A DNA stretch of 64,000 bases, taken from the NCBI GenBank assembly GCA_015179045.1, contig WHUZ01000028.1:186001-250000 (forward strand). The letters run 5' to 3'. Made by a program: the position numbers and the translations under genes. Positions 5,286 through 63,835 of the stretch are shown here, one piece after another. Numbering within the stretch: the first letter of the stretch is position 1; each line of letters begins with the position of its first letter. The notes under the pieces are model-generated. The model ran no database searches, was not told where the DNA came from, and saw nothing but the letters and a program-made list of their open reading frames with translations. Source of the DNA: Kalaharituber pfeilii (taxonomy: Eukaryota > Ascomycota > Pezizomycetes > Pezizales > Pezizaceae).

Positions 5286-5347
5286 CAAATTTTTTTTTTT
5301 TTTTTTAATCACGTAACCCCGCTTGCAGCGCCAAGCCATGGCAGGGT
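5286..5347 (-). mobile_element. Family B mini-retroposon (62 bp)
   Basis: Poly(T), then the family B unit (sense ACCCTGCCATGGC...GCGGGGTTACGTGA), is flanked by GAGTTCAT at 5278-5285 and 5348-5355. The empty site is present in copy 2 at about 17184. Confidence 0.9.
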
Positions 5348-5673
5348 GAGTTCATACTAGACGCCCTTGGGAGAACGTCTCTGTATTTCCTTTAGTTTCA
5401 GTTTCATAATACTATTAACACACTGGGCTTTCATCATGATGACACGGTTGGGCCACTGGCGCCCCTTATCTCCGTTCCAATCCGCCTCTACCTTCCAAAC
5501 AGCCATAAGATTCCTCTACATGACCTATCTTCACCTCCTTTACCCATTGCTATCCAATCCATGTCTTTCTGTTGCCCCAACCTGTCCTTATGTAACTCCT
5601 GCGCACTTGAGTGCTGGGTAGGTGGTGATTTGTACCCCTTCTCTGCACTATCCAACATTCCACTGATTCCTTT

Positions 5674-5779
5674 TGGAGAACGGAAGGGGAGCGGAGGAAG
5701 CAGAGAGTCATGTAACTAAATATCGCCATAGCCCACAGTGCGGCAAGCGATCAATGATATAAAAAAAAAAAAAAAAAAA
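5674..5779 (+). mobile_element. Family A retroposon, 106 bp
   Basis: A short 3'UTR-like stretch is followed by the family A hairpin (stem ATCGC at 5722-5726 with GCGAT at 5747-5751) and about 20 A. It is flanked by CTGATTCCTTT (5663-5673) and CTCATTCCTTT (5780-5790). Copy 2 has one uninterrupted CTCATTCCTTT near 17500. Confidence 0.88.
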
Positions 5780-5812
5780 CTCATTCCTTTGTACCTATCA
5801 TGTGTGAACAAT

Positions 5813-6866
5813 CTAGAGCCAATTACATACAAAACAAAAGGGGATTGTATTATCTGAGCTATCACAGCGGGACTCAAATGCTTTAAATTTCCACTTTCCT
5901 CGAACATCCCTTGTCCCGTTCAAATTTGTCATTGCCATTACCAAATTAGGCGTAAAGGGTAACCAGCCTTGTGGCGTATTGGATTTGTTATCCAGTTGCA
6001 GTGGTCTCCCCTGCAGCGTCATAACTCTCTGGAGCACATACTTATAGAACCTTGCACCAACTACTCTTGTTGGGGTGACATCAACTACTATAAATTGATG
6101 ACCGGACGTTTTTTCAAAATTGAACAATTTTCTGGACGCTGGCTAGATATGTCAGGGTGACCGAACAAAGTATCAATGATAAGCGATGAGAGATGACGCA
6201 TGATAATCACGCCATTCATAGTTATGATGGTGAAGAGAGAGAAGCTTGTTAGTTAGCACTCAATGTTAAATAGAATAATGCAAATAACCGACACGCTGGA
6301 CGCCTATATATAGAGGCCTCCACGGCCTCTATACAAAGGTCAAGTTCCAAGCGTTGTCCTAAGTTACACCTACACTTCGCTGCAATCGCAGACACCGTAA
6401 CAAGATAGCTTCACTTCCGCCTGCGCCGCATCCAGCCCTGCAGCGGCCAGCATCCCAAGGTATGGTACATCTCCTATACAGTCTCCCAATGTCAATTTGT
6501 GGTGAGTAATCAAATTGCGGGCGCAATCCACCTTCCAACTGAGCCTCTTGTATCGAGAGATCTGAATACTCTATAATAAGCTGTGCCCAGCTTAGGAACC
6601 AATAGAGGAATCCTTGAACAGTTACTAGCCTTGCTTCAGGTATGGTTCTTGCTCAAAATGAAATCTCAAAGTGACCTACAGTCATAGATAGAGACATCAG
6701 GATCCCCCGCCATGCCAGGTGTTAATTCAGTACGCCTGTCTAGAGATGACCGGAGACAGTGTTGACATAAGCATGCTGATTTGAGTTTCTGTATTGCCAT
6801 ACAGGGTACAGTAGTCAAAGAACCCCAGGAAGTGCTGCTATCATATCGGCATCTAGCCATCACCAA
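5813..6866 (-). other. Minus-strand open frames in duplicated segment, unidentified
   Basis: Frames at 6666-6866, about 6420-6590 and 5813-6127 are on one strand, and all have counterparts in copy 2 (for example 17984-18193 and 17759-17950). A solo LTR interrupts the series in copy 1. Composition (for example QFIVVDVTPTRV and GRLYRRC) looks protein-like and a short GT-AG gap could join the first two, but I recognise no family. Copy 2 has lost the candidate donor GT. If this was a gene it is decayed in both copies. Confidence 0.25.
6150..6402 (+). mobile_element. Solo LTR, 253 bp
   Basis: Begins TGTCAGGG, ends CCGTAACA, and is flanked by the 5-bp duplication AGATA (6145-6149 and 6403-6407). 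Copy 2 has a single AGATA at the site (near 17990). A TATA-like CCTATATATAG lies at ~6303-6313, so the LTR points to the plus strand. Its ends match, in opposite orientation, the solo LTR at 20141-20601, so both belong to one LTR family. There is no internal coding region. Confidence 0.9.
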
Positions 6867-7376
6867 GAAATCTAAGACACCTACAATGCTTACGGGATCA
6901 AAGGCACCTCATAAAAACAAAGTGCCATTAGAAAAAGGAGTAAGAGCTGGCTGGTGCAAAATTGCCCATACTTCTCGCAGTTTTGAGCAAGAGTACATCG
7001 CGCGCCACAGCATGGTGACACACCCATTCCTTAGAAAAATTACCAAAACGGGAAATAATAGGAAGTTGAGAGTACCATCTAATTAATTGCGCCGAAACTT
7101 AATAACTCATCCAAAAATGAACAGTAAGGACATGCAATAAGTACTTCTGTCGATACACCTGTAACCAAGGTTTGTTTATCCACTCTGCGTCGCATACAAT
7201 AGCAACCGAAAATTATCCTTCGCGATCACTCAAACGAGCGTAGTATGCAAAAGACAGCTTCCCTCATTATTCAAAGCACAATATAAACTCAAGGTATTGT
7301 TTGTACGCTATAGCTAGTTACAGCCAACAGTGTCTTCCTCCGCGCTGCTTTTGAGTTCCCATAAATCCATACTACT

Positions 7377-8221: not shown

Positions 8222-8338
8222 ACTGTATCCTATGTCGATATCTTCATTTTATTTGTTAAATATCTAAAAGCAAAAATATAGCTGCTTGAGAGCGCGAAGA
8301 GTTATAATAATTGAAGACAGTGATATACTGGTTGGTTC

Positions 8339-8404
8339 TTTTTTTTTTTTTTTATATATCATTACTCGCTTGCCGCCCCTGTGGGCTATGGCGAGAGTAG
8401 TTAC
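8339..8404 (-). mobile_element. Family A retroposon tail, shared with copy 2
   Basis: Poly(T), the hairpin unit and AGAGTAGTTACATAGGGAA are identical in position to 20833-20906, so this insertion predates the duplication (or was copied with it). Beyond 8404 the two copies diverge completely. Text here (to about 8600) looks like LINE 3' sequence, whereas copy 2 continues into a 295-bp element with a right target duplication. Confidence 0.7.
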
Positions 8405-8603
8405 ATAGGGAACAATCAACAAACATAATTAACAACAACAAAGCATAAACATTCTCCCAATCCTCTCCACATAACCTGCCCGACTCGTCTTCCTTCTCTC
8501 CCTCCAATATCTCCAGCTCCCACACCTCCCCTTAATTCCTTGTTCCATACCTCCCCTTAATCCCTTGTTCCATACCTCCCCTGCCTCCTATATCCCTTCT
8601 TGG

Positions 8604-8842
8604 TGTTAGTATTTTTTCGTATCTCTTATCATCCTGATAAGGCAATTTCTTACATATTTTGTATGTAGCTAATACTGTCTCTCATCATATCCTTTTGTAA
8701 TAGTCTTCTCATACTATAACAGTTTTAGTATGGATCTCTTATCCCTTGATAAGGCAATTTTTTCTCACCGTAGTGGCTAGCTTCCTGCTCTCACCGTGGT
8801 GGCCGGCTATTCTCATACTATAACAGTTTTAGTATGGGTCTC
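8604..8842. repeat. Copia 3' noncoding region with hairpin repeats
   Basis: A ~105-bp unit occurs twice (from ~8710 and ~8813), each holding CATACTATAACAGTTTTAGTATG-type inverted repeats and a CTTATCC-TTGATAAGGCAAT motif; a third, shorter GATAAGGCAAT motif lies at ~8636. It sits just beyond the pol stop. A left LTR matching the right one was not found, so the element's 3' end is deleted or unrecognised. Confidence 0.45.
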
Positions 8843-10252
8843 TTATCCCTTGATAAGGCAATTTTTCTCACCGTAGTGGCCAGCTTCTCTCAGATGGTTG
8901 AACAGCATATTTCTGCTTTTAAAATTCAAATCGCATCTGGTACATGATATCTTGCTTGCTTTGACATCTAATCCCATACTAACAACATGTCGATGGTGGA
9001 TTTCTCTTGAGAGGCCTTTTGTCATGATATCAGCTATCATATCCCTTGTTGGTATGTATGCCACTTTGCACATCCCATTCTCGATACAGGATGCAATAAA
9101 TCTTTCCCGAACGTGTATGTGTTTCGTCCTTGCATGGTATGAGTTTATCTTAGCCAATGCTAGGGCACCCTGGTTATCTCCGTAAAGTATAGATGGGTTA
9201 TTGCTAGGACGGCCAATTGCTTCCAAGAAATTCCTAATCCAACATAGTTCTTTTGCAGCCTCTGTTGCACCAATGAATTCGGCCTCCGTAGTTGATAGGG
9301 CAACTAATGATTGTTTCTTGGACCTCCAAGAAATCAAACTACCATTGAAAAAGAATAGATATCCACAAGTGCTTCTTCTATCTTTCTTATTATCCATGTT
9401 GGAAGAATCTGTATATCCATATATCCCTTTTTGCAATGACTGCTGCCCTAAGCATAGTGTTGCTGCAACTGTACCTTTCACGTATTTGAGCAGGCGGATC
9501 AATGCCAATTTATGTACCTCACCAGGGTTGGCGCAAGCTTGGGCAAGACGATTTACCACAAAGGCGATATCCGGTCGTGAGCCCAACATGAGGTATAGGA
9601 GCTTGCCTATAGCTTTTTGATACCATTTCTTTTGCCCCTCATTCAGTATCGTGGTTTCTGCATCTAGATCAAGCTTAAGCAACATGGGGGTATCCACAGG
9701 GTGTTCACGCTGCATGCCTAAGTCTTCTATCATTTCCAATGTATAGTGCAGTTGATCAATATATATCAGTTTCTTGTGTCGGTCGCGAATTATTCTCATA
9801 CCCGTGAACATCAAGAATGGAATGTCCTTGAGTCCCACACTCTTTGACATACATGTTTTAATTTGATCAATATGTTCCCGTACTCCTATAAATATCATAT
9901 CATCAACATGCACCAGTATCCAGTTCGAGTCGCGTTCTGATATATAGATCCATATCGCCGCATCTACTGGAATCTTCTTCATACCGAATGAAGTGAGGAT
10001 CTCATTTAGCTTCTCGTACCATGCTTTGGCAGCCTGCCGTAGTCCATATAGAGCTTTCCTCAACTGTACTACTTTCCCATGTTCAGTATACCCTTGAGGA
10101 AGTTCCATATAGACCACTTCTGTTAAGGTTCCATTTGTGAAAGCATTCATAACATCTCCTTGATCTATTTCTAGATCCAGTTCAGCAGCAATAGTCAATT
10201 CCAAATTGTAGGTCACCACGAGCAACCAATCTAGCCTTTTCTCGAAATGCAC
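8843..10252 (-). pseudogene. Ty1/copia Pol, RT-RNase H part
   Basis: Reverse transcriptase and RNase H of a Ty1/copia polyprotein. Visible motifs: DVMNAF, YGLRQAAKAWYE, the catalytic VHVDD (usually YVDD), then RNase H residues in YTDSSN, TTEAEFIG and YGDNQGAL. Uniquely, the last ~45 residues carry CTRC...H-X5-H, a C2H2 zinc-finger pattern (C-X2-C-X12-H-X5-H). The frame joins the upstream pol block only through a shift at ~10,200, where roughly 30 residues of RT expected between VARGD and AAELDLE are missing. The element is therefore not functional. Confidence 0.9.
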
Positions 10253-12512
10253 CTGTAGATGTTGATGTATCCTTTATTGTAAATACCCATTTACATGGCA
10301 AAACCTTTGCTGCTGGTCGATCGATTACTTCCCAAGTTTCATTCTTCAATAGTGCTGCAATCTCTCTATCCATTGCTGCCTTCCATAATATATGATCATC
10401 TCGTTGTATTGCATCTCGATAGCTTCTTGGAGGGGTATCAGTGTAGGTGTCGGTGTGGGTTTCGGTGTGGGTGCCAGGATCTTTATGCATGCCGTAGTCT
10501 GTTTTCATGGCTATCCTGGAAGTTGTCTTTACCGATAACAAATATTGGAATACTACCGGTACAATTTGTACAGACTGGGTAAATGATAACTGGTCTGCTT
10601 CCAAGTGTTGTTGAACTTCCTTTGTAAGCATAGCTTTTATCTCCTCTGTATCTTCCTCATCAATTTCCTGTATATCTCGTCCCAACAAGTCCTTGCCAGC
10701 TGGAATTGCATTATTCGTGAGAGACGAGTGACCCAGTATTGCTTCGTTGAAGATCACATCTCTTCGCTTAATGAGAGCATACTTTCCTATATCATATATC
10801 ATGTATAGGTTCTCTGAGTCCCAGTACCCAACCAAGATTCCAGGACTAGTATGGGATTCCAACTTGTCCCTATCATGACCTGGTACATGTGTGTACGCTC
10901 TGCAACCCCATATCCGCAAATGCCCAACATATGGTTTTGTTCCAAACCATTTCTCATATGGAGTTTTGTCGATTTTTCTGTGAGGAGATCGGTTATATAG
11001 GTAGGCCGCACTTTTTATCGCTTCTCCCCAAAATCCATATCCCAATTGTGCATGACACATCATCGCAGCAGCATGCTCCATTAGTGTTCGATTAATGCGT
11101 TCTGCAATTCCGTTTTGTTCTGGAGAATATGGTTGCGTACCATGGTGGTGTACCCCCTGTGCCTGCAATAAATTAACCATATCATTTGAGAAATATTCTC
11201 CTCCATTGTCACAGTGCAATGTTTTGATATTCTTCCCAGTTTGCTTTTCAGCAAAAGCCTGAAAATGCTTAAACGTGACAAACACATCTGACTTCCGTAA
11301 CATGGGGTATACCGTTACATATCTCGAAAATTCATCTGTATACGTGACAAAGTAGATATATCCAAAGAAATCCGCTGGGACTGGTCCACACACATCCGAG
11401 TGAATGACTTCCAATAGATCAGTAGCTCTAGACATTGGAATGTATGATACTTGTCTGTGTTGCTTTGCAGTAATGCAATCAAGGCAATCCACCGTTGATA
11501 CCTTAGGGTTTCCAATCATCATTCCCTCTGCCATTGAACACAGCTTCGTTATTGCCCTCCTATTTAGGTGTCCAAGTCTTTTGTGCCACGTCTCTACTGA
11601 GGCAGTTTCAACCGGTCGTACAGCTACTGTGAAGGCTGTTGCTGGCGAGGTACTGATATCGAAATAATAATGTCTACCTAGCTTCAGTAGTGTTGCCCAC
11701 AATAGGTCATCCTTAATAATAGTGCACATGGTTTTCGTCGGAAAGATTTCATATCCCTCATCGATCAGTTGGCCCATATACACTAAATTGCAGTCCCCTT
11801 CCAGGTCAGGAGTCCAGATAACATTAGTCACTAAGACATCACCAGTTTTCAATGATAGCAGCACATCTCCTATAGCCTTCCCATAGATCAATCCTTTTCC
11901 AGTCATGACTGGATAATCTGGAATTAACTTGTACTTCTTGTATAGTGATTTGTCTTTGGTATAATGGTTAGAGCATCCACTATTCAACATCCATCTCCAC
12001 TTGTCATACCCCTCCCAGTCCGGTTTATTCACCATCATGAAGTTGAAAGATGTCTTTTCTAGTGGCTTGCATGGAATTTCTTGGGGATCATGTTGAGATA
12101 GTAGTATCATGGCTCTTCCACCTCTCCCAGTACTAGGTTCTATCTTCAGTTGATTTTCCCTCTCTTTTTCTCTTTTCTCCCATAGTCTTCTTGGTAATAG
12201 ATTGGGATTCTTTGTCCAACAAGTATCATCGGTGTGTCCCATTTTATTGCAAGTGTCACATTTGAGGGTTTGACGTTTTGGCTTGCTTTCTATCTCTTCT
12301 TCGAGTCTATTCCGCTTCTGATTATTGATAATGTATGCTGTCGCTGGATTCGCCGGAGTCGCCGAGTTTGCCAAATTCGCTGGATTTGCCACTGGAATTG
12401 GGTTTGCTGTAAATTCTTTCATCATTCTCTCTTCCCGAAGAATGGCAGAGGTGACTTCAGGAATAGTTAAAGGGCTTGCCAACGGTCCCCTATTAACTAA
12501 TGTAGTCCTCAA
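10182..12512 (-). pseudogene. Ty1/copia Pol: zinc knuckle, protease, integrase, RT start
   Basis: Order along the 776 codons: CCHC knuckle (CDTCNKMGHTDDTC), protease motif LNSG in place of the usual DSG, integrase HHCC (HKRLGHLN...CLDC), catalytic core (HSDVCGP, CDNGGEY, NGIAER), then the start of RT (WKAAMDREIAAL, CKWVF). The Asp-to-Asn change in the protease would be inactivating and is a GAT-to-AAT transition compatible with RIP. The frame ends prematurely at ~10,182 through the deletion and frameshift described for the next block. Confidence 0.9.
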
Positions 12513-13228
12513 AGCAGCATACTGCTGTTATCCATAGTCATACCTACTTGTCGAATCTCTTGAGCCTTTGAAGTGATGCTGTTAAAGTACTGTTGTAAGG
12601 ATTGACCTTGCTCCTTCTTCATCTGTGCAAACTCTTCCATGAGATGCATCCTGTTCATATTGTCTCTTGATTGGTATGTCTCTTTTAGCATCTTCCAAGC
12701 TTCAGCAGCTGACGAGCATAGACCTATCATATCTTGGTGCTCAATATTTGCTCTAAGAAGCATTTCTGAGAGGGCAAACTCATCCATCCTTTTCCAATAA
12801 TCTGTATAGTATTGAGGTTTTGGGTCTAATATAGCAGTCCATACTCCCATACGGATTAATATTACCCTCATATTCCTTTTCCATGACAGGTAGTTTGTTG
12901 CATTCAGTACGGGGATAGCTGTGGGTTCTCGAGTTATTCTGAATAGTTGATAGTAGTGTTCGTAGTTCGGGTAATAGTAGTTGTTGTAGTGGGTTGGACC
13001 TTCTTCCGGATTTTCCTGGTATTCGTAATCCTCTTGAATAGGCTGTCGGGCGAATCCTGGTACTCCTGATCCTCTAGTTTGTGATCCTTGTTGAGACGTC
13101 CATTCTTGTGCTTGTCCATTTGCCTCCTGATTCCCGTACTGTTGAAGATTGTAGGAGCTGGAATGTGGAGGCTGTGGAGCGTCATCCTGAGGATCATCCT
13201 CACTCTGGTATACTGGGATGGCCAACAT
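12509..13228 (-). pseudogene. Ty1/copia Gag
   Basis: 239 codons. The N-terminal third is Gln/Tyr-rich (Asn-Tyr runs near residues 80-90). It is followed by the copia Gag core (NYLSWKRNMRVIL, then AAEAWKMLKETYQSR and the EFAQMKKEQGQSLQQYF pattern of UBN2-type Gag). The next block starts 4 bp before this one ends and is in another frame; the expected continuation implies a single-base loss near 12,525 rather than separate genes, since copia normally uses one polyprotein. Confidence 0.85.
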
Positions 13229-17682: not shown

Positions 17683-17780
17683 GTTTTTTTTTTTTTTTTT
17701 TTGTCACCTGATCCCGCATGCAGCTGTTCGCCATGGCACGGCCCCTGGGTCTAGACCCTCAAAGCCCGGAGGCTGGCTTG
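17683..17780 (-). mobile_element. Family B retroposon, 98 bp
   Basis: Flanked by AGGCGGAAAGGG at 17671-17682 and 17781-17792. Copy 1 has a single AGGCGTAAAGGG at ~5948. This copy extends 5' of the mini-unit into CCGGGCTTTGAGGGTCTAGACC, matching the longer LINE fragment ending at ~25541, and so ties family B to a LINE 3' end. Confidence 0.9.
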
Positions 17781-20832: not shown

Positions 20833-21127
20833 TTCCCTTTTTTTTTTTTTTTATATCATTACTCGCTTGCCGCCCCTGTGGGCTATGGCGAGAGTAGTTA
20901 CATAGGGAAGAAAAAAGGAAATCATTAAACTACCGGCTCTGTCTGACCTCTCCTAAGAAATAAAGGATGAAATAACGGACCCTCCTAGAATAGGAAATAC
21001 GAGATAACGTTAGAGTTGCCTGGTAGGTATGCGCCCAGTTGAGCATGCCCACTAACCTGTCCTCCCCCATCTTCTCCTTCGATGCCTTCGCCCCCTCTTC
21101 TCCTTCCGGCCACCTCCGTTTCCAGTA
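20833..21127 (-). mobile_element. Family A retroposon, 295 bp
   Basis: Poly(T), hairpin unit and ~230 bp of upstream LINE-like sequence, flanked by TACTGGTTGG at 20823-20832 and 21128-21137. 5'-truncated copy. Confidence 0.85.
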
Positions 21128-21246
21128 CTGGTTGGCTGTGTGGGCAGTCTGCTCTGCGATATTTATATGGTTCCATAGAAAAAGGGTATATGTAGGGTTA
21201 CTTATCAACTACTATCCTAAAGTGAGCTATTTTCCTGCTGTACATC

Positions 21247-21760
21247 ATGCTAACATGCCTAATGCAGAGGACATTATGGACCGACAAGCCCTCCCCCAAG
21301 AAGACAGACAAGGCCCCCGCCCCTCCACCGAGCCCCGACGCCACCACCTCGAAGCACGGCGTCGTAGTACACGGAATCGCCCTCAGAAAAGACCTGGGGA
21401 AAGTCCAGCGATGGTTGGAGACTGGGAACACGGGCCTGGGAAAGACAGTTGGGATAAGGTGGTTAAGGAAGAAGACCGTGTTGCTGGAAGAGGGGAAGAA
21501 GGCCAGTTCGGTCGTAGTGTACTTGGAAGACAAGGCTGACGTAGAAAGGGTAAGGCTGGGCGGGAAATGGTTGAGGGTCAGCCCATACGAGCCAGACAGG
21601 AGACGGAAGTGAAGGGCGTTGTATGGATACCCGCATCATGTATGAGCACCGCGGGCAACACATGTATCTAGTGGTCGTAGTTTTTCTTCTTTAAATAAAC
21701 CCTCGCCATAGCCCTCAGGGCGGTATGCGAGTAATGATATAAAATAAAAAAAAAAAAAAA
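21247..21760 (+). mobile_element. ORF1-only family A retroposon
   Basis: A 121-codon frame (21247-21612) contains the LINE ORF1 core: HGVVVHGIALRKDLGK, RWLETGN, GIRWLRKK, SSVVVYLED, VRLGGKWL, then a stop after RRRK. About 100 bp of 3'UTR follows, then the family A hairpin (CTCGCC...GCGAGTAATGATAT) and poly(A) ending at 21760. No zinc knuckle, endonuclease or RT lies between ORF1 and the tail. The 5' end and target duplication were not located. Confidence 0.75.
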
Positions 21761-21848: not shown

Positions 21849-21929
21849 CTCTCTGGCGGGGAATTGAACCCCGGTCGCCCGCGCACCGGTAATGACAGGC
21901 GGGAATACTAACCACTATACTACCAGAGA
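21849..21929 (-). tRNA. tRNA-Asp (GTC) with 9-nt intron
   Basis: Acceptor stem TCTCTGG/CCAGAGA with discriminator G; D arm AGTATAGTGGTTAGTAT; anticodon stem CCCGC/GCGGG with loop CTGTCAC after removal of TTACCGGTG immediately 3' of the base following the anticodon, the canonical intron position; T arm GGGTTCAATTCCC. Total 81 nt (72 + 9). A T-run follows on the minus strand (below 21847), fitting RNA polymerase III termination. Apparently intact. Confidence 0.93.
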
Positions 21930-23137: not shown

Positions 23138-23572
23138 TTTTTTTTTTTTTTTTTTTTTTTAAATATCAGTACTCGCATGCCGCCCTAAGGGCTATGGCGA
23201 GGGTTTAGATACATAAAAAATAAAGGAGAAATATCAAAGATAATTACATATGATGCCCGCGGCGCTCATTGATGATGCGGGTGGGTCGAGCCTGGGGTCA
23301 GCATGTGCCGGGACCTTCCTATTTCCTTCCTCTGTCCCGCTCGTACACGCTCGTCCGCAACCACTTTCCTCCGAGTCTCACTTTCCCGACTTCCGTCTGT
23401 GTCTCCAAATATACCACCGCAGAACAAGTCTGCTTGCCTTCCTCCACTAGTGATTGATTTCCTCCGCAGCCATCTTACCCCTACAATCTTTCCTATGTCG
23501 TTGTTGGAGGCCTCCAACCATCTTCTGACCTTCCCCAAGTCTTGGCTTAGGGCTATGCCGTGGATGACAACG
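23138..23572 (-). mobile_element. ORF1-only family A retroposon, decayed
   Basis: Poly(T) from 23137, hairpin unit CTCGCC...GCGAGTACTGATAT in reverse, then 3'UTR and an ORF1 fragment on the minus strand (VVIHGIA, DLGKVRRWLEASN, GVRWLRRK). It breaks frame after GGRQADLF. Possible short duplication CCTGTT on both sides. 5'-truncated within the ORF1 core. Confidence 0.7.
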
Positions 23573-23579
23573 CCTGTTG

Positions 23580-32229: not shown

Positions 32230-32950
32230 TTAAGTGCTCACAGACATTTCTTCCCCATTTTTTTTTTTTTTTATCACGTGACCCCGCTTGTAGCTCCTCG
32301 CCATGGCAGGGCATTTCTTCCCCAGTGATGGTATACTCATGGGACCACTAAGATCGGTGTGGATCATATCGAAGAGCTGGATCGATCGGTCACTAACTGG
32401 CAGTGGTGTATAACACTTCATGTTAAACTGGGTGCATTTTTCACACAAAAACACAGAGGGAGCTTTTGGTAATACTGCTAATGTAATATTCAAAATACTG
32501 ATTTATGTCATGCTTCTGAGCTGAAATTATTTATGCTCGTAATCTGCTGGTGGACCCTAGATGAAGATCAACCTGGTCTCGAACGTGTGGCCTTGCAGTG
32601 GAGAATAAACAAACTTGAAGATTTCGATTTTGCTATCCTGAACTGGACGCATTGTATTGAAACGTCCACTAGCAGAAGAACATTATGAATCATTGTGAGA
32701 AAGACTGTTCTCGTCTCATCCTGCAATTCACCGAGCGCGTGGTTTGAAATGAACTCAGCAGGTATTACCATGCTAGGTCTGCTGAAGAAGATGCTTCATT
32801 ATGTCCATGGTGCAGCATTTGAGTAATAGACTTCAAAAAAAATAACAATGGTCGATGAGGCTTGGCATTGCAGCAGGCTTTCATGCTTACTAACCTATCC
32901 ATGCCAAGCAAATCAAACGCATATAGTTCTAGTCTCACCAAGGCGATCAA
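32230..32950 (-). pseudogene. Ty1/copia integrase relic
   Basis: The minus strand at 32230-32493 reads CEKCTQFNMK (second half of the integrase zinc finger) followed by IHTDLSGPM, the first catalytic Asp region of copia integrase. Further upstream (to ~32950) frames are broken and only loosely copia-like. A family B mini-retroposon interrupts it at 32258-32311. It is different in sequence from the copia element at 8.8-13.3 kb. Confidence 0.6.
32258..32311 (-). mobile_element. Family B mini-retroposon (54 bp)
   Basis: CATTTCTTCCCCA is duplicated at 32245-32257 and 32312-32324. Sense unit CCCTGCCATGGC...GCGGGGTCACGTGAT + A-tail. Inserted into the copia relic, so younger than it. Confidence 0.92.
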
Positions 32951-36807: not shown

Positions 36808-37685
36808 ACTGTCTTTCACCGCAACGCGACGTGCACCACGTCCGACGCACGCCCTGCCATGGCGGACAGCTGCAAGCGGGGTTAAGTGACAAAAAAAAAA
36901 AAAAAAAAAAAAAACGTCCGACGCACGTTTTACCAAAAAACTGACCACGCGCGACAACAGATATCTCAACCACGAGAATAGAATTCTCTATGCAACTTGT
37001 AGACTGGTTGAATTAAGGACACTTCTTCATGAAATTCGCACCATAAACTGGCATATCCTTGGCATATATTTTTCACTGTGATAACACTAATATTGAATTC
37101 CACTTATCACACCTGAATTAAGTTTGATAAAAATAGTAGGACCCTTGAATAACAATATTTCATCTTATTCAAAGATGTGAGAAGCACATCAAGAAAATTT
37201 TCAAAGAAGTGGTAGAATAATTCATATTCTCATTGAAATTGTATGCAATAATTGTATAGGAAAACTACCAGAAATGGCAATTTGATGTATGAACTAGGCA
37301 CTAAACAACCAAATGAGGCACTAGTTATGAAGAGGCCTATCATATTTGCGATATTGTCTAGCCACAATTCTATAGCCATTATGGTGAGCGTTGATGGGAA
37401 GTAGTGCATCCTACCCTCCAGTGCACTTTGTATAGGAATTCCATATAAATGCATGCCAAGACATCAATGAAAAACTCATGGTACCATTAACTGACCACAA
37501 TGTCCTTTCAGAACGAATAGAGGTATGAAAAGTGAAGAATAACCCTTTATTTATTTTCCCGGAAAAGGGTATACAAAACTCTATTCTGGTGGTTGAGATA
37601 TATGTTTGTCGCGCGTGGTCAGTTTTGGTGTATAACGTGCGTCGGGACGTGGTGTACGTCGCGTTCTGGTGAATTATAGTATAAC
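36808..37685. mobile_element. Long-TIR element, ~0.88 kb
   Basis: About 100 bp at 36815-36985 (excluding a later insert) reappears inverted at ~37590-37680: GAACGCGACGT/ACGTCGCGTT, CCGACGCACG/CGTGCGTCGG, AACTGACCACGCGCGACA/TGTCGCGCGTGGTCAGTT. Outer ends approximate (TATACTA / TAGTATA). Interior AT-rich with no clear transposase. A family B mini-retroposon sits in the left arm. Confidence 0.65.
36852..36914 (+). mobile_element. Family B mini-retroposon (63 bp)
   Basis: CGTCCGACGCACG is duplicated at 36839-36851 and 36915-36927. CCCTGCCATGGC...GCGGGGTTAAGTGAC + ~24 A. It is inserted in the left arm of the TIR element; the right arm gives the empty-site sequence. Confidence 0.92.
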
Positions 37686-39593: not shown

Positions 39594-39944
39594 TTAGGTT
39601 TTGGCTTTTGTTACGTACAGGTGTTCTAGTATATGGGGAGGAACGGCAAGCTTGATATGCATGCAGCTAAAAGGGTGTGGATCTTTTTTTTTTTTTTTTT
39701 TTTTTTTCACGTGACCCCGCTTGTAGCTGTTCGCCATGGCAGGGCAAGGGTGTGGATCGCCATGTTTCCTTTTGCGGTGACTCAATGCGAAATCCGACAG
39801 AACCAATGGATAGGTAAATGTTGGCAAAATTCCGTAGCAACGAACCTTGTGGAAGCAATCGAAGTCCACGTGTAACGTTTCACACCAACGAAACGTAGAC
39901 TTGAAGATGACAAAATGACAGCCAATAGATACATTTCCTGCCAT
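39594..39944 (-). CDS. Open frame extended by an in-frame mini-retroposon
   Basis: 116 codons from ATG 39944: MAGNVSIGCHFVIFKSTF at the start, DPHP just before the insert and again just after, ending YVTKAKT. The 62-bp family B insert plus its 13-bp duplication adds exactly 75 bp, so the frame stays open and would gain ~25 residues including PAMANSYKRGHV and a Lys run from the A-tail. Related, broken sequence lies divergently upstream of the other two DUF4360 copies (53.57-53.72 and 58.53-58.69 kb). No known domain; it could be a conserved non-coding repeat rather than a gene. Confidence 0.35.
   Translation of the reverse strand: MAGNVSIGCHFVIFKSTFRWCETLHVDFDCFHKVRCYGILPTFTYPLVLSDFALSHRKRKHGDPHPCPAMANSYKRGHVKKKKKKKKDPHPFSCMHIKLAVPPHILEHLYVTKAKT
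39684..39745 (-). mobile_element. Family B mini-retroposon (62 bp), in-frame
   Basis: AAGGGTGTGGATC is duplicated at 39671-39683 and 39746-39758; sense unit GCCCTGCCATGGCGAAC...GCGGGGTCACGTGA + ~24 A. Confidence 0.93.
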
Positions 39945-40896: not shown

Positions 40897-41055
40897 CTCT
40901 AGCACCTCCCACTTTACGAGCGCTCCCTTCACTGCTCAACAGTCTCCTTCCCTCTCAGTTCCCGCTTCTCCTCTTCGATTCTGAACCCTCCGTCCTACTC
41001 ATCTTTCAGCTTGATTATCTCTCAGACCACGTTATCCATTTTGGCATCAAACACA

Positions 41056-41694
41056 ATGCACTCCCTTCCAAAGACCATCATTGCACTTGTACTTCTCTTC
41101 AGTGCTGTCCTTGGATATGCGCTCCCCTTGAGCGACATCGTCGAACGACAGGACCCACCCTGGCCGGCTGTCAATATAGAAGCGATTGGCTATGCTGGGT
41201 CTGGATGCCCTGCGAACTCAGTTAACATCGTACCTCAAAATAATTTCCAGGAGGTTAAGCTCGAATTCATTTCCTATGTCGCTATGATAGGACCACATAT
41301 CCCTCAATCAGAGAACCGCAAGAATTGCGCCATCACATTGCTCATTTCCCATCCCCCAGGCTGGTCAATCGCCGTTTATCAAGCCGATTACAAAGGAAGA
41401 CTCCAACTTGACGATGGGGTTGATGCCACACAGAGAAGCGAGTACTGGTGGGATGGCGACACCGCTGAGCTGGAATCAAACTGGTTTGGACCACAACCAT
41501 GGCAGGATTACTCCTTCACCGATATCCTCAACAAGGAAGTCTGGAGCTCATGCAAGGGCAACAGCCTTCTAAAGGCCAACACCCAGATCAGATTGGACAA
41601 CTCGAAGAATCCAGATGGATCTGGATTTATAACAACTGACAGCATCACCAACAAGGTGACTCATATTTGCTACCTTAAATGGAAGAAATGTTAG
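41056..41694 (+). CDS. Secreted DUF4360 protein, gene 1
   Basis: 212 residues, no intron in the coding part. ATG 41056 gives a clean signal peptide (MHSLPKTIIALVLLFSAVLG), whereas the frame upstream has no ATG. Mature part follows the DUF4360 pattern: IGYAGSGCPANS, a KLEF strand, RKNCAITLLISHPPGWSIAVY, the Tyr/Trp-rich YWWDGDT, IRLDN, DSITNKVTHICYLKW and a C-terminal Cys. DUF4360 proteins are short secreted fungal and bacterial proteins of unknown function. Conserved Cys suggest disulfides in the secreted protein (inference). A TATA box lies ~165 bp upstream and an apparent 3'UTR intron follows the stop. Appears intact. Confidence 0.85.
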   Translation: MHSLPKTIIALVLLFSAVLGYALPLSDIVERQDPPWPAVNIEAIGYAGSGCPANSVNIVPQNNFQEVKLEFISYVAMIGPHIPQSENRKNCAITLLISHPPGWSIAVYQADYKGRLQLDDGVDATQRSEYWWDGDTAELESNWFGPQPWQDYSFTDILNKEVWSSCKGNSLLKANTQIRLDNSKNPDGSGFITTDSITNKVTHICYLKWKKC

Positions 41695-42469: not shown

Positions 42470-42528
42470 CTCGCCATAGCCTTACAGGCGGCATGCGAGT
42501 AATGATATATAAAAAAAAAAATAAAAAT
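42470..42528 (+). mobile_element. Family A mini-retroposon (59 bp)
   Basis: TGCAGCACAA is duplicated at 42460-42469 and 42529-42538. Starts exactly at CTCGCC; stem CTCGC/GCGAG, then TAATGATATAT and an A-rich tail. Confidence 0.92.
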
Positions 42529-43197: not shown

Positions 43198-43256
43198 ACC
43201 TCGCCATAGCCCATAGGGCGGCATGCGAGTAATGATATAAAAAAAAAAAAAAAAAA
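43198..43256 (+). mobile_element. Family A mini-retroposon (59 bp)
   Basis: ATAACCCATAGGGC is duplicated at 43184-43197 and 43257-43270. Sense ACCTCGCC...GCGAGTAATGATAT + ~18 A. The target word itself resembles part of the hairpin (CCCATAGGGC), and a hairpin-like GGGCGGCATACCAG continues after the right duplication, so it may have landed in an older family A relic. Confidence 0.9.
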
Positions 43257-43392
43257 ATAACCCATAGGGCGGCATACCAGATACAATATAAAAAAAGAAT
43301 AAAGATTGATAAGCCAGTTACTGCTCACTCGCAAATGCCCTCTTCGTTTCAAACCGCTCATAGAATACTATTGCTGTTTTGTTGCTACTATC

Positions 43393-44072
43393 TTATTTTT
43401 TTTTTTTTTTTTAATATCATTTATCGCAGGCCGCCCTAAGGGCTATGGCGATGTTATGCTAAGTAAATAAAAAGAAGGTTAAAAACAACGACAGAAACCT
43501 TCCCGCCTAAAAGCACCAATCCTAACCCCAACCTAAATACATGTATTATTGCCCGCAGTCTCCTCCGTGATGCGGGTGGCGTCCGGTACTTCCTACTTCC
43601 TCCCCCTCTCCGGCTCATACCGGACGGATCTGAACCAGCGCCCACCTAGCCTCACCTTCTCGACCTCCGTCTCCTTGCCGACGTAAACAACCACCGAGCT
43701 CGTCTTCTTCCCCTCCTCCTCGAGCAATGTCTTCCTCCTCAGCCAGCGAATCCCTTCTATTTTCCCCAACTCCCTGTTCGCTGTTTCCAGCCAATGTCTG
43801 ATCTTCCCCAAGTCCCTTCGCAGGGGAATCCCGTGTATGACGACGCCGTGCTTCCCTTTGTTAGTGGAGGCGTCGGTTTTGACTGGTGGAGGTTTGACGG
43901 TGGGACCCTTTCCCTTCCGCTTATGTCGCTGGAAAGTCTCCTCCTGGCTAGGAAGAGACTCTCTCTTTGTGTTGGGTTTGGGTGGTGGTGGTGACGTGGG
44001 CTTCGGTGGTGAAGGCGTAGCCTCCTGCGATGGCCCTGGTGTTGGCGGTGATGGCGGTGATGGCGGTGGTGG
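43393..44072 (-). mobile_element. ORF1-only family A retroposon, intact frame, 680 bp
   Basis: GTTGCTACTATC is duplicated at 43381-43392 and 44073-44084. On the minus strand an uninterrupted ORF1 C-terminal half runs to a stop at 43593: Pro/Ser linker, KRKGKGP, KHGVVIHGIPLRRDLGKIRH, GIRWLRRK, SSVVVYV, VRLGGRW, RGRK. A ~110-bp 3'UTR follows, then the hairpin (TCGC/GCGA) and poly(A). There is no zinc knuckle or ORF2. Best-preserved ORF1-only copy in the window. Confidence 0.88.
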
Positions 44073-50024: not shown

Positions 50025-50078
50025 GCCCTGCCATTGCCAACAGCTGCAAGCGGGGTTACGTGAATTATAAAAAACAAA
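50025..50078 (+). mobile_element. Family B mini-retroposon (54 bp), first of a pair
   Basis: CACTTTATCCT at 50014-50024 and 50079-50089; GCCCTGCCATTGCC...GCGGGGTTACGTGAA + A-rich tail. Confidence 0.9.
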
Positions 50079-50089
50079 CACTTTATCCT

Positions 50090-50162
50090 TTTTTTTTTTT
50101 TTTTTTAAAAAAAATTATATGGCATAATCCCAATTGCAGCTGTTTGTCATGGCAGGGGAAAC
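50090..50162 (-). mobile_element. Family B mini-retroposon (73 bp), second of a pair
   Basis: CACTTTATCCT again at 50163-50173; poly(T) and a diverged B unit in reverse (ATTGCAGCTGTTTGTCATGG). Two insertions, tail to tail, used the same target, giving three copies of the 11-bp word. Confidence 0.88.
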
Positions 50163-51765: not shown

Positions 51766-52410
51766 CTAACACTCCTTCCATTTGAGGAAACAAATGTGAG
51801 TTACCTTGTTGGTGATGCTGTCGGTTGTTATATACCCCTCCCCATTTGGATTCTTCGAGTTGTCCAACTTGATCTGGGTATTGATTTTGAGGAGGCTGTT
51901 ACCGTTGGGTGGGCTCCAGACTTGCTTCGGTACAGTGTCTATGAAATCGTAGGTCTGCTCGGGTTTAATTTCGCCTTCCCAGTATGATGCCAAGGTGGCA
52001 GTGTCACCATCCCACCAGTAGTCGCTCTGCTGTGTAGCTTTGATACCCGAATCAAGTTGAAGTCGTCCATGGTAATAGCCTTGATAAACAGTGACACACC
52101 ATCCAGGGGTATGGGATATGAGTATGGTGATGGCGCAATTCTTGCGGTGTTCCGTTACGGGTACATTTGGTCCTATAGTGGCTATATAGGCATCGAAATC
52201 GAGCTTAACCTCTTCGAAATTATTCTGAGGTGTGATTTTAACAGTGTTAGCAGGGCATCCGGTACCAGCATAGCCAATTGCTTCTATATTGGCAGCTGGC
52301 CAGTTTGGTTGTGGAGCTCGTTCAACTAGCTCGTCCAAGGGGAGTGCATATGCGAGGACAGCGCCGAAGAGAAGTACAAGCACGATGATGCTCTTTGTTA
52401 GGGAGTACAT
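51766..52410 (-). CDS. Secreted DUF4360 protein, gene 2
   Basis: 214 residues from ATG 52410, chosen because it starts a signal peptide (MYSLTKSIIVLVLLFGAVLA) and aligns with gene 1; the frame continues open upstream but without conserved sequence. Mature part: IGYAGTGCPANT, KLDFDAYIATIG, RKNCAITILISHTPGW, YYHGRLQLD, YWWDGDT, DSITNKVTHICFLKW, final Cys. Same length and Cys pattern as gene 1. TATA-like sequence at 52567-52576. Downstream, CAGGCAAGT marks the position of gene 1's 3'UTR intron. Appears intact. Confidence 0.87.
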   Translation of the reverse strand: MYSLTKSIIVLVLLFGAVLAYALPLDELVERAPQPNWPAANIEAIGYAGTGCPANTVKITPQNNFEEVKLDFDAYIATIGPNVPVTEHRKNCAITILISHTPGWCVTVYQGYYHGRLQLDSGIKATQQSDYWWDGDTATLASYWEGEIKPEQTYDFIDTVPKQVWSPPNGNSLLKINTQIKLDNSKNPNGEGYITTDSITNKVTHICFLKWKEC

Positions 52411-52769
52411 TGTTGTTGAGGCAAAATGCACGACTGGGTCTGAGAAGTAATTAAGCTGAGAGATGGGTGAGTATGGAGATTTCAGGCTCGAGGAGAAGCG
52501 GGAGCTGGAAGGTGACGTGGTTGAGGAGTGAAGGGAGAGATGGTAAGGAGGGATGGTGCTCGTAGACTTATATATTACGGTAGACGGGCTGTGCAAAAGG
52601 CTCAAGCGACCTCCTCATTGTCTTTTGGATGCATGCTTATGGAAAGCACTGTGGCGGAAATGATGGGATGTGCCATAAAGAACTGTGAGACAAAATGGAG
52701 TTTAGGCACGCCCACTTTCGACGAATTTAGCAGTCACCCACCCTCAGCGTCAGATTCCCCATAGGAGGA

Positions 52770-54008: not shown

Positions 54009-54060
54009 TCAGTGTCTCTGCACAGCCCATAGGACGGCATGCCAATAATGATTTTAAAAT
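54009..54060 (+). mobile_element. Family A mini-retroposon (52 bp), decayed
   Basis: AACCAAGTG at 54000-54008 and 54061-54069; GCACAGCCCATAGGACGGCAT...CCAATAATGATTTTAAAAT, outer stem lost and A-tail short. Confidence 0.7.
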
Positions 54061-56834: not shown

Positions 56835-57520
56835 CTAACACGTCTTCCATTTAAGATACAAAATGTGGGTCACCTTGTTGGTGATACTGTCGCTGGTTAT
56901 ATGCCCCCACCCATCTGGATCTGCGAGTTGTCCAATCTGATTTGGGTATGCACCTTCAGGATGCCATTACCTTTGGATGGGCTCCAGATTTCCTTCGTGA
57001 AATCTTCGAACACGTAAGATTGCCATGGCATTGGGCCAACCCAGGTTGATTCTAATGTTGCAGTGTCGCCATCCCACCAGTAGTCGCTCATCTGTGTGGC
57101 TTTGACGCCCCAATCAAGGTGAAGTTGGCCTTTGTATTGGGCTTGATAAACAGCCACACATAGCTCTGTGGGATGGATTTTTTTTTTTTTTTTTTATATC
57201 ACATGACCCCGCTTGTAGCTGTTCGCCATGGCAGGGCCTGTGGGATGGATTATGAGCATGGTGATGGCACAATTCTTGCGGTGTTCAGGTTTGGGGACTC
57301 CTGGTCCTATAGAGGCAACATAGGCATCAAATTCAATCTTAACCGCTTGAAAATTATTCTGCAGCGCAATGTTAACCGTGTTAGCAGGGCACCCAGACCC
57401 AGCGTAGCCAAGCGTCTCGATATTTCGTTTAATGATCTCGCCTGAGGGGAGCGCATATGCGTGGACAGCACTTAAGAGGAGTGTAAGGACGATGATACTC
57501 TGTGGAAGTGCATATATCAT
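56835..57520 (-). pseudogene. DUF4360 gene 3, broken by insertion and frameshift
   Basis: Starts with ATG 57520 (signal peptide IVLTLLLSAVHAYALP), continues LGYAGSGCPANT, KIEFDAYVASIG, RKNCAITMLIIHPTG, then a family B mini-retroposon (57180-57237). The frame resumes with AVYQAQYKGQLHLD, YWWDGDT, IRLDN. A one-base deletion near 56930 relative to genes 1 and 2 shifts the C-terminal ITSDSITNKVTHI...LKWK part; the ancestral stop is at 56835-56837. Upstream sequence matches the other two copies. Non-functional. Confidence 0.88.
57180..57237 (-). mobile_element. Family B mini-retroposon (58 bp) in DUF4360 gene 3
   Basis: CTGTGGGATGGATT is duplicated at 57166-57179 and 57238-57251; sense unit GCCCTGCCATGGCGAAC...GCGGGGTCATGTGATAT + 16 A. 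Confidence 0.95.
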
Positions 57521-58929: not shown

Positions 58930-59210
58930 TCCATGTAGTATTTTAGTGTGTTCTGCATACATATGCTTACCTCCAAGCATTGAGAGCTGGATGTTTCCAA
59001 GTCCCACGAAGGATGAGTTGAATGGTCTCCCTGACCATCTATCCTTCGTATTCTCCAGTGTTTGTCCACCTGATTCCACTGCTTCCTGTATAAAGATTAC
59101 TACCGAGTTTGTCCGCTTTCCTTCTCTCCTTTCCTTATTCCACGGATTTGCTGTCTCCTTCAAATCCCCTACTTTGCCTAGTATTTGCCTTGTTACTATG
59201 TCATATACCT
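58930..59210 (-). mobile_element. LINE ORF1 relic
   Basis: The minus strand reads RQILGKVGDLKETANPW then GKRTNSVVIFIQEAVE, aligning with the ORF1 core (RRDLGKIRHWLETANREL and GKKTSSVVVYV of the copy at 43393-44072). Heavily decayed; no tail identified nearby. Confidence 0.5.
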
Positions 59211-59704: not shown

Positions 59705-59764
59705 TTTTTTTTTTTTTTTTTTTATATCACATGACCCCGCTTGTAGCTGTTCGCCATGGCAGGG
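59705..59764 (-). mobile_element. Family B mini-retroposon (60 bp)
   Basis: CAGATAATAGCCCTC is duplicated at 59690-59704 and 59765-59779. Confidence 0.93.
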
Positions 59765-59802: not shown

Positions 59803-59872
59803 TTTTTTTTTTTTTCTTTTTTTTTTTTTTAAAATCACATAACCCCGCTTGTAGCACTTGGCCATGGCAGGG
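59803..59872 (-). mobile_element. Family B mini-retroposon (70 bp)
   Basis: TATTTAAATGGGAC is duplicated at 59789-59802 and 59873-59886. Unit with CACTTGG in place of the usual TGTTCG loop; only 24 bp after the previous insertion. Confidence 0.93.
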
Positions 59873-60582: not shown

Positions 60583-60599
60583 CTCGATAGCGCTTTACC

Positions 60600-61780
60600 C
60601 AAAAAACAAAATATTTTATTGCCACGGTACAGTCGTACGAGTCACGGCCCTTGGTAAGGATGAAAGGTCATTCATGAGATTACGCCACTTTTTTTTTTTT
60701 TTTTTTGTATCACGCCACGTTCTGCAACACCTGCTCTTTGGATTATAAGCCCCGCTACTGGAGTATACGTTATAGGGAGGGTGCACTAGACAGCGCTACT
60801 GATAATGGAACTGTTTTTTTTTTTAAGTACATTTCACTTTCGATGTTTCAATTGTCCTCTTTTGTCTTCCGTCGGGCTCTGCCAGGCAATGACGACAGAA
60901 TTATGGGATGTGGTGGTGACAGTGGGATGCATGATAATATATATACATGAGTACTATTCCTCGTGAAGTTTCCTGTGCTTGCGCGCCCCAAGGTATTCCC
61001 CATCCTGGAGTGGTAGTCAATGCTAGTTTTCCTACCTGAGAGCATTAGCTTCAGAAGACCTAGCTCAGTTACAGCCTTCGTTTCCGCTCCAAATGTCCAT
61101 TCGAGCAATGCGGGTAATGCGAACCACATGTTACTGTACTATTTATGAAACGCAAGAACTGACATCACAGCCTCTCCCAAGTATAATGCGCCTATGCCCT
61201 ACATTCTGCATGCCTCACCTCGTCCACCCACTACACCTTTTCCCCCTTGTCTACCTTGATTCAGCCCTGACGCCTCCAACAGTCTATGCTGGAGTCCACG
61301 TACAAGTGACCACTTGTGACCGAAATTATGGACTTAAACTTGACACACTACTTCATCCCCCTACCACATCTGATTTAAAAATAAACAATGTAGATATGTA
61401 CTATTTCACCTGCTCTACAACACTTCATTTTCCAAATTCAAAAATGATAAGGTGGTATTGAGTAGTAGGGCATTGAAATTCTGGACTTTATATGCAGCAC
61501 CGGACCTTGGAAAAGTAACATGCCAAGTTTGCCAAGTTTGCAGAATTTGTACTAGTGTGAGAACAAAACTTACTATATAGGAACGATCCACCTAATTCTT
61601 CTATGGCTTTTATATACACGTTCTGGAAACTCCTTTGTACCATATGTACAACCATTCCTATATGCCTCCATAGTCCATAAACTTCCTAAAAAAAAGCCCT
61701 TGAATAGTAATATCAGAAAAAGAATTAAGAGCTTCAGGAATTGTTGTTCATAAAGCATTCAGATTATACTCACAATGATT
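60600..61780. other. No confident gene
   Basis: Poly(T) tracts at 60688-60706 and 60813-60824 may be decayed tails. The 122-codon frame 61093-61461 has no recognised domain. Confidence 0.25.
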
Positions 61781-61785
61781 GCTTG

Positions 61786-61874
61786 ATACATTTCTCGCCA
61801 TAGCCCATAGGGCAGCATGCGCGTACTGATATTCTCAAAAAAAAAAAAAAAAGAAGAAAAAAAAAAAAAAAAAA
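61786..61874 (+). mobile_element. Family A mini-retroposon (89 bp incl. tail)
   Basis: GATTGCTTG at 61777-61785 and 61875-61883; ATACATTTCTCGCC...GCGCGTACTGATATT, then a ~45-nt A-rich tail. Confidence 0.88.
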
Positions 61875-61889
61875 GATTGCTTGCACACG

Positions 61890-62860
61890 ATTCTTCACTT
61901 TCACTATATACAAATGGTTCGGAAATGCCTTTTTCGGCCGCAGCGAGCTCGATCCAGTTCCATAGCTACTCTTCTTCTCGCTCCTCTAGCAGCAGCGGCA
62001 GGCAACATAGCCTTTCTGTTCTTTTCCTTAGGTGTGTTTATACCTATTACTAGGTCGTTAGTTCATTCCTTCCCTGAAAAGAAGCTATACAGCAGGGCAG
62101 GCTTACACACCTTTGGAGACGTAACTCAAGTTTTCCGATACCGAATATCCATTTCGGTGTCAAAATGAGGTGCGGAATCCCCTGAGAAGAGTGTAGAAAA
62201 GAGGCTACCATCTAATTTGTATATTAGTCAGCAATCTGGTGAATGTAACCCATAGGTGGGTTCTACCATATAGCTAACCTGTCCTTCTCCCCATTCCAAT
62301 CTCAACTGAAGCAAGTTCGTAGGCCATCCACGCATCTCTTCACACAAGCTACAAAGTTCGGCAATTTCCTGCCTGCCGACGCAATTAATCTGCGCTAGTG
62401 GAGGGGTAAGTGAGATTATACGTGAGCGGTGAGATGGAAAATGGCAATATTGGCTTGAAGGGGGTTATTGTCACTGCCACCATGGACTCGCTACTTGTAT
62501 GCAGGGTTATGTGACTTCAGAAAAGAAAAGAAGTAGAAATGATTGAGTCTGTAAAAGCTCCATTGTCAGTTTAGAAAACCTTTCATCTACATGTACGAGC
62601 ACGAAAGGTTTTATTCATGAAAGGACCGGTCCCTCGTGAACGGCGCGGTCCTCTCGAGAAGATTTGCGAGCGATCCAGAACACATGTTGCACGTGAGATT
62701 AGCTGTATGAGATGTTTCAAAATGGCCCTACAGTAGAGATTCCGGATATTGACGTACACACAGCATCTGCAATATAATTCCTGTCAGAAGCCTGCCCGTG
62801 CTCGGGTCACTGAACGACTTGTCGGCTAATTTCACGCGCGTCCTGAAGAAGGCAAGGTTT
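61890..62860. other. No gene seen; variant B tail
   Basis: At ~62478-62530 a B-like unit (CACCATGGACTCGC...TATGCAGGGTTATGTGACTTC) ends in GAAAAGAAAAG. Nothing else supportable. Confidence 0.3.
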
Positions 62861-62899
62861 GAAGAGCCATTAAATGTTATAAAGACGTTGGATGAGAGT

Positions 62900-63109
62900 G
62901 GACCAGTATGAATGGGACAGGGGACGGAAGTAGGATGGATAGACTGGCCCTCTGAGGAAGGTTTCGATCAGCACCACGTAGGCTCACCGCGGGATCCACA
63001 TGTAATTAGTTGAGGTTCCTTCTTTCTTTCGTTAGTTAACTTTAACATCGCCATAGCCCATTGGGCGGCACGCGATTAATGATATTAAAAAAAAAAAAAA
63101 AAAAAAAAA
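62900..63109 (+). mobile_element. ORF1-type family A retroposon, 3' end
   Basis: The ORF1 C-terminus QYEWDRGRK and stop (TAG 62931) are followed by ~115 bp of 3'UTR, the hairpin with ATCGC/GCGAT stem (~63050-63075) and ~23 A. Homologous to the end of the copy at 34110-35585. The 5' end is not resolved. Confidence 0.75.
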
Positions 63110-63774
63110 GATCCCGAATGTGAATAGGAGCATGTATGGTATCTTTATGATTCCAACAGTTATTGCTCTGTTGATAAATGTAGTGGACAGCTGTGGCCCC
63201 CTCGTGATGAAATTTGCAGACAGCATCGATGTCTAAGATATAAATCTCACTGTACAAGTGCAAGGTCTTCGTCCATTATCGCCATAGACCAACGCGACAT
63301 ATCCTCACAAGTAGAGACAATGATAAAACACAATTCGAACTGAGGGTTGGACAAATGCGCTAAGAGTAGCAGGGCATGTGCGAATGTGAGTTACACGTCC
63401 ATCGGGAGCAAATGGTTGAAATTTTGTTATTTCCATTTCTATTTTTATAATCACCTACCACAAAGTACAGTAACTCCCTCTTGCACCCTACGCAGAGTAC
63501 CATATGAAATCTCATATCTACTCGGCCAACTTCATGCGTCGCTGCGTATTATCGTTTGCCACGCTACGAAAGGGATTCGCTTTGGTAGAAATCCGCCTTG
63601 TTGCTTTGTGCAACAGCCTTGCAGGTTACACCAACCGCACACTGCAAACTTGCGTACACTGTATGGGAGCACAGCAGCAGTATTCTCTTATTCGCGAGCT
63701 AGGAAGCGATAATTAATGCCTTATATTCCCCTTGTGTTTGGTGCACAAATCGGTGCGACGTGAGATTGTTGTTT

Positions 63775-63835
63775 GCCCTGCCATGGCGAATAGCTGCAAG
63801 CGGGGTTACGTGAAATTAAAAAAAAAAAAAAAAAA
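63775..63835 (+). mobile_element. Family B mini-retroposon (61 bp)
   Basis: GAGATTGTTGTTT is duplicated at 63762-63774 and 63836-63848; GCCCTGCCATGGCGAATAGC...GCGGGGTTACGTGAAAT + ~18 A. Confidence 0.95.

Follow-up and report, generated by a model that had tools for sequence, protein, structure and literature searches.

Insertions made of a ~40-nt 3' terminal unit and an A tail recur in the genome of Kalaharituber pfeilii, and we consider it probable (roughly 0.85) that the short copies of one of their families, family B, are LINE-derived and delimited by RNA structure, without a separate SINE gene. Truncation in family B is not random, and its 5' end is discrete. As we discuss below, several kinds of evidence bear on this conclusion: the distribution of 5' ends, the match between short units and the tails of individual LINE lineages, and the predicted fold of the LINE 3' end.

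Short retroposons in the window and the genome

The window, the whole 64,000-nt stretch of DNA analyzed here, lies within a 657,269-base contig of the 78-Mb genome (360 contigs) that we searched. All of the ten family B and five family A copies listed in the initial annotation are present, each comprising the unit and its A tail between target duplications (10/10 and 5/5 positions), and the family B duplications measure 8-16 bp. Counted from the beginning of the unit (CCCTGCC in family B), nine of the ten B copies start at offset -1 to +1. Six of these nine lie on the minus strand: 5286-5347 (a CTTGGCGC-type copy starting with A at -1, 8-bp duplication ATGAACTC), 59803-59872 (CCAAGTGC type, offset 0, 14-bp duplication), and four CA-type copies at 32258-32311 (offset 0, 13 bp), 39684-39745 (G at -1, 13 bp), 57180-57237 (G at -1, 14 bp), and 59705-59764 (offset +1, 16 bp). 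On the plus strand are 36852-36914 (offset 0, 14 bp), 50025-50078 (G at -1, 11 bp), and 63775-63835 (G at -1, 13 bp). The tenth copy, at 50090 (50089-50162, minus strand), is diverged, carries five extra 5' bases, and has an 11-bp duplication AGGATAAAGTG. A ~78-nt B copy with a three-hairpin 3' end is an addition to the earlier list (17704-17780, or 17684-17780 with its tail, minus strand; offset -39, 12-bp duplication CCCTTTCCGCCT).

The family A copies at 5167-5223 (minus strand, 15-bp duplication), 42470-42528 (plus strand, 10 bp), and 43198-43257 (plus strand, 14-bp duplication ATAACCCATAGGGC) start at -1, 0, and -2, respectively. The other two, both on the plus strand, start 3-8 bases upstream of the unit with non-unit bases between: 54009-54060, a diverged copy with a short tail, has a 9-bp exact duplication at -7 or a 13-bp duplication with one mismatch at -3, and 61786-61874 has eight extra 5' bases, a 9-bp duplication, and a long interrupted tail. 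A search of the window with the units gave 22 A and 14 B matches, and 17 of the A matches were absent from the earlier list. Four of these 17 have a small conserved frame just upstream and hence continue past the hairpin; another, at 43257, corresponds to the duplicated target of the 43198 copy. Searching the window against Rfam at the gathering score returned a tRNA (21849-21929) as the sole match and nothing over any A or B unit.

These units are abundant. Exact matches in the genome number 524 for CTGCAAGCGGGGTTACGTGA (TT 20-mer) and 597 for CTACAAGCGGGGTCAYGTGA (CA 20-mer), and a family A pattern has 2132 matches; the reversed patterns have none each in the same 78 Mb, so the occurrence of the units is not due to chance. 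Allowing up to two mismatches, the genome holds 1526 B cores, and the first 100 among the matches listed are all exact 33-mers. Extrapolating from the 20-mer counts and the fractions of short copies, we estimate about 700 short B copies genome-wide, and repeat finders probably miss hundreds of these ~60-bp insertions. The window has 34 A-runs of at least 12 bases, 29 of which we read as tails belonging to A or B units; two copies hold two runs each. A motif-free scan for A-runs of at least nine bases whose next bases recur within 110 bases upstream covered 357 kb of sequence, mostly seeded by A or B units and thus distinct from a genome census, with the window as an unseeded part. It yielded 73 insertions. 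Motifs assigned 68 of them to A or B, reading added a further four, and the last, with a 7-nt body, belongs to neither family; the reversed-sequence control gave four matches.

Sampled family B copies start mostly at two positions

Our family B sample comprised 144 distinct copies, 64 of them short, and 55 of the short copies had firm duplications with a median length of 13 bp. Among the 75 B copies of any length with firm duplications, 55 start at -6 to +2 of CCCTGCC (26 at -1 and 11 at -2), nine start at -36 to -40, seven lie further upstream, four lie inside the unit, and none starts between -7 and -35. The duplication caller yields fewer firm ends for long copies, so the longer classes are under-counted in this distribution, and the -36 to -40 class is over-weighted within it, as three of its nine members came from 12 loci picked for the hairpin H2b (one of these loci was merged as a duplicate by the script). 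L181, among the seven far-upstream starts, is a 78-nt form preceded by 16 consecutive T residues. Of 15 H2b-bearing CA copies that we read, seven are the 78-nt form and eight continue upstream through the 80 bases shown. Among the first 100 exact CA cores listed, 11 also appear in the listed exact H2b-linked places, a comparison that misses copies with mutated H2b.

Target sites look similar for short (51) and longer (13) copies, with Y/RA at the junction and duplications mostly of 12-14 bp; the lack of A at -1 in this comparison is partly an artefact of the caller. A tail and target duplications mark the short copies as truncated LINEs, as does the exact match of many of them to the 3' terminus of longer, coding elements in this genome. 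The scattered 5' ends typical of truncated LINE copies are not seen in family B, which is therefore a structured variant of truncation. Ordinary random 5' truncation, viewed in a small sample, would partly fit family A, in which 17 of 46 firm ends scatter from -82 to -327; for family B it is refuted by two sharp peaks separated by an empty interval, and as a general explanation it can be set aside almost entirely. The smooth distribution of 5' lengths that the initial annotation had named as evidence against its reading was likewise not found in these 75 copies. That annotation had proposed a genome-wide plot of 5' ends; drawn here on samples, the plot has a very sharp peak for family B and a moderate one for family A.

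Family A has a hairpin of its own, with a moderate peak at its foot. In a sample of 98 distinct copies, 46 had firm duplications. Nineteen of these start at -8 to +3, four at -9 to -60, and 17 beyond, a peak that is inflated because firm duplications are easier to call in short copies. The remaining six start inside the unit at +13 to +25; five of them, at +13 to +18, lie in or near the hairpin loop, and the start at +25 is misplaced, a longer reading moving it to -2. Even shorter are three A-type insertions of 10, 16, and 23 nt. Family A is thus a moderate peak on ordinary scatter, and the claim of a discrete 5' end, which holds for family B, was too strong for family A.

Short units match the tails of individual LINE lineages

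Lineages were sampled with seed patterns taken from the unit's 3' half and blind to the 5' end. Of 30 copies found with the CA seed, 27 were short; of 66 found with the TT seed, 18 were short, 39 had upstream hairpins, and nine fitted neither class. With those nine left out (-1 base G in one, A in five, T in two, and C in one), copies with G before CCCTGCC were short in 42 of 47 cases (TT 15/17; CA 27/30, all G) and copies with A at this position in three of 40. In CA-type copies the -1 base is G in 14/14 tail-bearing and 32/32 short copies, and in TTGG-type copies it is A in 13/13 tail-bearing and 5/5 short copies. In the TT type it is G in 16/19 short copies versus A in 26/29 LINE tails. We considered an untemplated or cap-derived G at -1 and dropped the idea, as tails with G at -1 and TT units exist linked to H2b (26 places when one mismatch is allowed, roughly half of them carrying a TT unit), so this G can be templated. 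Summed over lineages, 44 of 64 short units have an exact counterpart among the sampled LINE tails. The lineage-matched -1 bases and common unit variants argue against a single small-RNA founder.

These results bear directly on the proposal that the short copies are an independent, ultra-short SINE, in which one or more loci would make a 40-nt polyadenylated RNA that a LINE mobilizes in trans. A short form in 42 of 47 seed copies of one lineage would suit such an element, as would the identity of many cores (the 597 exact CA 20-mers and the exact 33-mers listed first). Under a single source, though, neither the -1 base nor the most frequent unit variants would track each LINE lineage, and TT tails with G at -1 are also H2b-linked. 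A second discrete class at 78 nt also speaks against it, and the 39-nt unit is a LINE tail without a tRNA, 5S, or 7SL head. Given also that tails stand behind LINE frames, we regard a self-standing SINE, as raised in the initial annotation, as improbable.

The parent elements are visible in the same genome. One B1 tail follows a frame with an RNase H domain (L004), and, among the 100 H2b-linked places listed out of 121, at least 13 CA tails lie ~1.0-1.2 kb downstream of LINE-frame matches with 60-65% identity to a B1 enzyme fragment; upstream of one CA tail, the open frame with the LINE match is 1184 aa long (contig C301). The B tail is common to CA, B1, and B2 elements. Several B2 tails are directly preceded by a small conserved frame, as are the A units of some long copies. 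We take this frame to be ORF1-like, based on LINE anatomy; two of the small frames beside tails had no match in Pfam, and a protein search with window positions 21039-21539, a query other than the frame with the conserved stretch, returned no relative. Reading ~1.5 kb upstream in L043 and L044 revealed no reverse transcriptase frame, and elements with the small frame and tail look like non-autonomous, ORF1-only derivatives. Loci with RVT_1 matches (L009-L038) were rejected as the LINEs sought, because their frames read as LTR elements. These LINEs, in which an RNase H domain and within-genome matches were observed, may belong to the Tad1 clade.

The 5'-end peaks of family B coincide with predicted hairpin feet

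In one copy folded from each of three lineages, the LINE tail is predicted to form hairpins H3 and H2b, then H1 (the 40-nt unit), followed by poly(A). H3 is AAGCCTG/CGGGCTT, and H2b reads GGGU-CUAG-ACCC, GGG-CUUG-CCC, and GGAC-UUCG-GUCC in the three lineages. The 5' foot of H1, a single base into the predicted stem, is where short B copies begin; the 78-nt copies begin at the corresponding foot of H3. Standard pairs fill 93.7% of pair cells counted over 43 of 56 tails (the 13 dropped are mostly near-duplicates and include tails with deletions or without H3: L040, L060, L106, and L187), compared with 29-51% when the partners are slid. Shuffling the 3' letters gave a mean of 91.1% paired, and none of 500 shuffles reached 93.7%. 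Compensatory changes occur in H2b, where both partners differ at three pairs. Of five pairing measures, two did not exceed the shuffles (209 and 479 of 500 reach them), and H3 is incomplete in the B2 lineage; over the 43 tails, its two outermost pairs are broken in 24 and 23. A conserved 3' stem-loop is common to the CA, B1, and B2 partners, as in the tails of stringent-type LINEs.

Several other structural readings were rejected. First, a long alternative hairpin ending at -1, drawn by hand, gave way to H3 plus H2b in the predicted fold of the upstream 38 nt. Second, if the next hairpin halted the enzyme strongly, ends would fall at the 3' foot of H2b, near -6, and only five of the 55 short copies with firm duplications have their 5' end at -3 to -6. 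Third, deletions within the three-hairpin region (39 places) had been considered as enzyme jumps; on our reading, many can be explained by GGG or GGCTT repeats, and these deletions were left out of the argument. Finally, L054, whose junction at -1 occurs in one place, and the L041/L042 chimera each represent one event or copies of it.

Discussion

We slightly favor the following account as a whole. LINE machinery would insert pieces of LINE RNA by target-primed reverse transcription. H1 would be the handle by which the LINE reverse transcriptase grasps its RNA, in the manner of stringent LINEs; having copied that handle, the enzyme would lose hold of the template and usually release, leaving a 40-nt insertion. 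If it gets past H1, the next release would come at the foot of the second domain, giving 78 nt, and only a minority of reverse transcription would continue to longer copies. That release at the hairpin foot sets the 5' end is our tentative choice. Release after copying of the handle would account for both feet and for the family A peak. Against it, 26 of the 55 short copies with firm duplications start precisely at -1, and lineages with A at -1 have nearly the same fold and yet are rarely short (3/40), so fold alone is not the cause. Abortive copying, as suggested in the initial annotation, is possible; its wording of stopping at the hairpin calls for care, because each copy includes the complete hairpin and breaks off at the 5' foot rather than where a polymerase arriving from the 3' side first meets the stem.

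Alternatively, the template may be cut beforehand: LINE RNA would be trimmed or cleaved from its 5' side, the enzyme-held H1 or H3-H2b-H1 would survive, and the piece would be inserted whole by run-off. Enzymes running off the end of a template typically add extra purines to the cDNA. Among copies whose duplication stops at -2 or further upstream, 10 of 11 CA short copies have C or T at -2 instead of the parental G, as do 16 of 20 copies with an extra base across all lineages. Such a non-templated pyrimidine before G at -1 favors pre-cut RNA. In addition, many ends fall on exactly the same base, and microhomology is not clearly required; by our own arithmetic, 13 of 39 firm copies without extra bases overlap the duplication versus ~10 by chance, which indicates that joining does not depend on it. 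Peaks at 5' feet, as opposed to the 3' foot of the next hairpin, and the family A starts in or near the loop fit this reading as well. Trimming should, however, sometimes halt at the H2b foot or in the spacers, where none of the 75 ends falls, and the lineages with A at -1, which are rarely short, share the fold. We regard pre-cut RNA as less likely than release. It is likewise unlikely, though conceivable, that one LINE lineage makes discrete ~40- and 78-nt RNAs from its own 3' end, by processing or from a promoter in the tail, and that these are inserted in preference to the full RNA. If so, this would be the smallest retroposon known to us, and a LINE whose main product is a seed of its own tail.

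UnaL2, ZfL2-1, and ZfL2-2 insert by target priming with duplications, and Mg-SINE and other tail-sharing SINEs carry their own body ahead of the tail. Short B copies differ from Mg-SINE in being the tail alone, and from UnaL2 and the ZfL2 elements in that truncation, in most copies sampled from one lineage, falls at the foot of the hairpin itself, no more than 40 nt from the tail. The accessible text of one study reports that the ORF2 protein of stringent LINEs binds a stem-loop in the 3' tail, and describes LINE/SINE tail pairs in the Tad1 clade (PMC4176376). The likeness of UnaL2, ZfL2-1, and ZfL2-2 to the present elements is this needed, protein-bound stem-loop, and by analogy H1 may be bound here. 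In Magnaporthe, according to the portion available of PMC2104539, the MGL LINE has preferred template-switch sites with strong predicted hairpins just upstream; in that case the cDNA becomes linked to other RNAs, with an MGL portion of at least 230 nt, whereas here a 40-nt piece is inserted alone. Mobilization through a LINE-similar 3' end, as that text describes for SINEs of the Mg-SINE type, is a further likeness. Truncation points of snRNA pseudogenes cluster in short RNA segments and were compared with predicted structure, as far as the available part of PMC4476161 relates; those are 3' truncations of cellular RNAs by mammalian L1, and the ends described here are 5' ends of the LINE itself. 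Within the open-licence literature, taken largely as titles and the openings of abstracts, we recognized no published class of 40-nt LINE-tail insertions.

What causes 5' truncation of LINEs is an old question, and here truncation occurs at fixed positions that coincide with predicted RNA folds. Sister lineages differ so sharply in the frequency of the short form (42/47 versus 3/40) that the cause is directly testable.

ORF1-like frames beside LINE tails

A small conserved frame that we label ORF1-like lay directly upstream of the A unit, the ~40-nt terminal hairpin unit of LINE family A, at window positions 21358-21600 (+), 23331-23574 (-), 35133-35306 (+), and 43605-43847 (-), and a fifth match to this frame (59008-59208, -) had no adjoining A hit. 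The same kind of frame immediately preceded tails of B2, a lineage of LINE family B, at the sampled loci L043, L044, and L166. A Pfam search gave no match for two of the small frames adjoining tails. The arrangement of small frame and A unit or B2 tail resembles that of ORF1-only half-LINEs.

Irregular and very small copies

A-type insertions were as short as 10 nt plus tail (10-bp duplication; L156, locus position 2051) and 16 nt plus tail (13-bp duplication; L154, locus position 841). Because the A copies at 8356-8395 and 20853-20892 (-) share their downstream sequence, an A copy probably rode within a larger repeat. At L181, 16 T residues within the target duplication preceded a 78-nt B copy, of the class starting at the 5' foot of hairpin H3. 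Twin priming, in which the opposite strand served as template for an additional poly(A), may account for this T run. At L041 (1549-1587, locus numbering) and L042, a G links the B unit to a LINE tail that ends abruptly within H1, the 40-nt hairpin; this junction could reflect a template jump at -1, the base before CCCTGCC, where many short B copies also start.

Genomic surroundings

The window also contains a Copia-type LTR element (8843-13228, -) with three overlapping frames (gag, integrase, and RVT_2, the last interrupted by a frame break) and DUF4360 genes at 41011-41694 (+) and 51766-52605 (-), for which two further relatives were found. Along contig C1 of the assembly, a 2-Mb stretch (0.565-2.573 Mb) lacked any exact match to the A pattern, which was frequent ahead of this stretch and occurred again beyond it; the gap perhaps points to a two-compartment genome.
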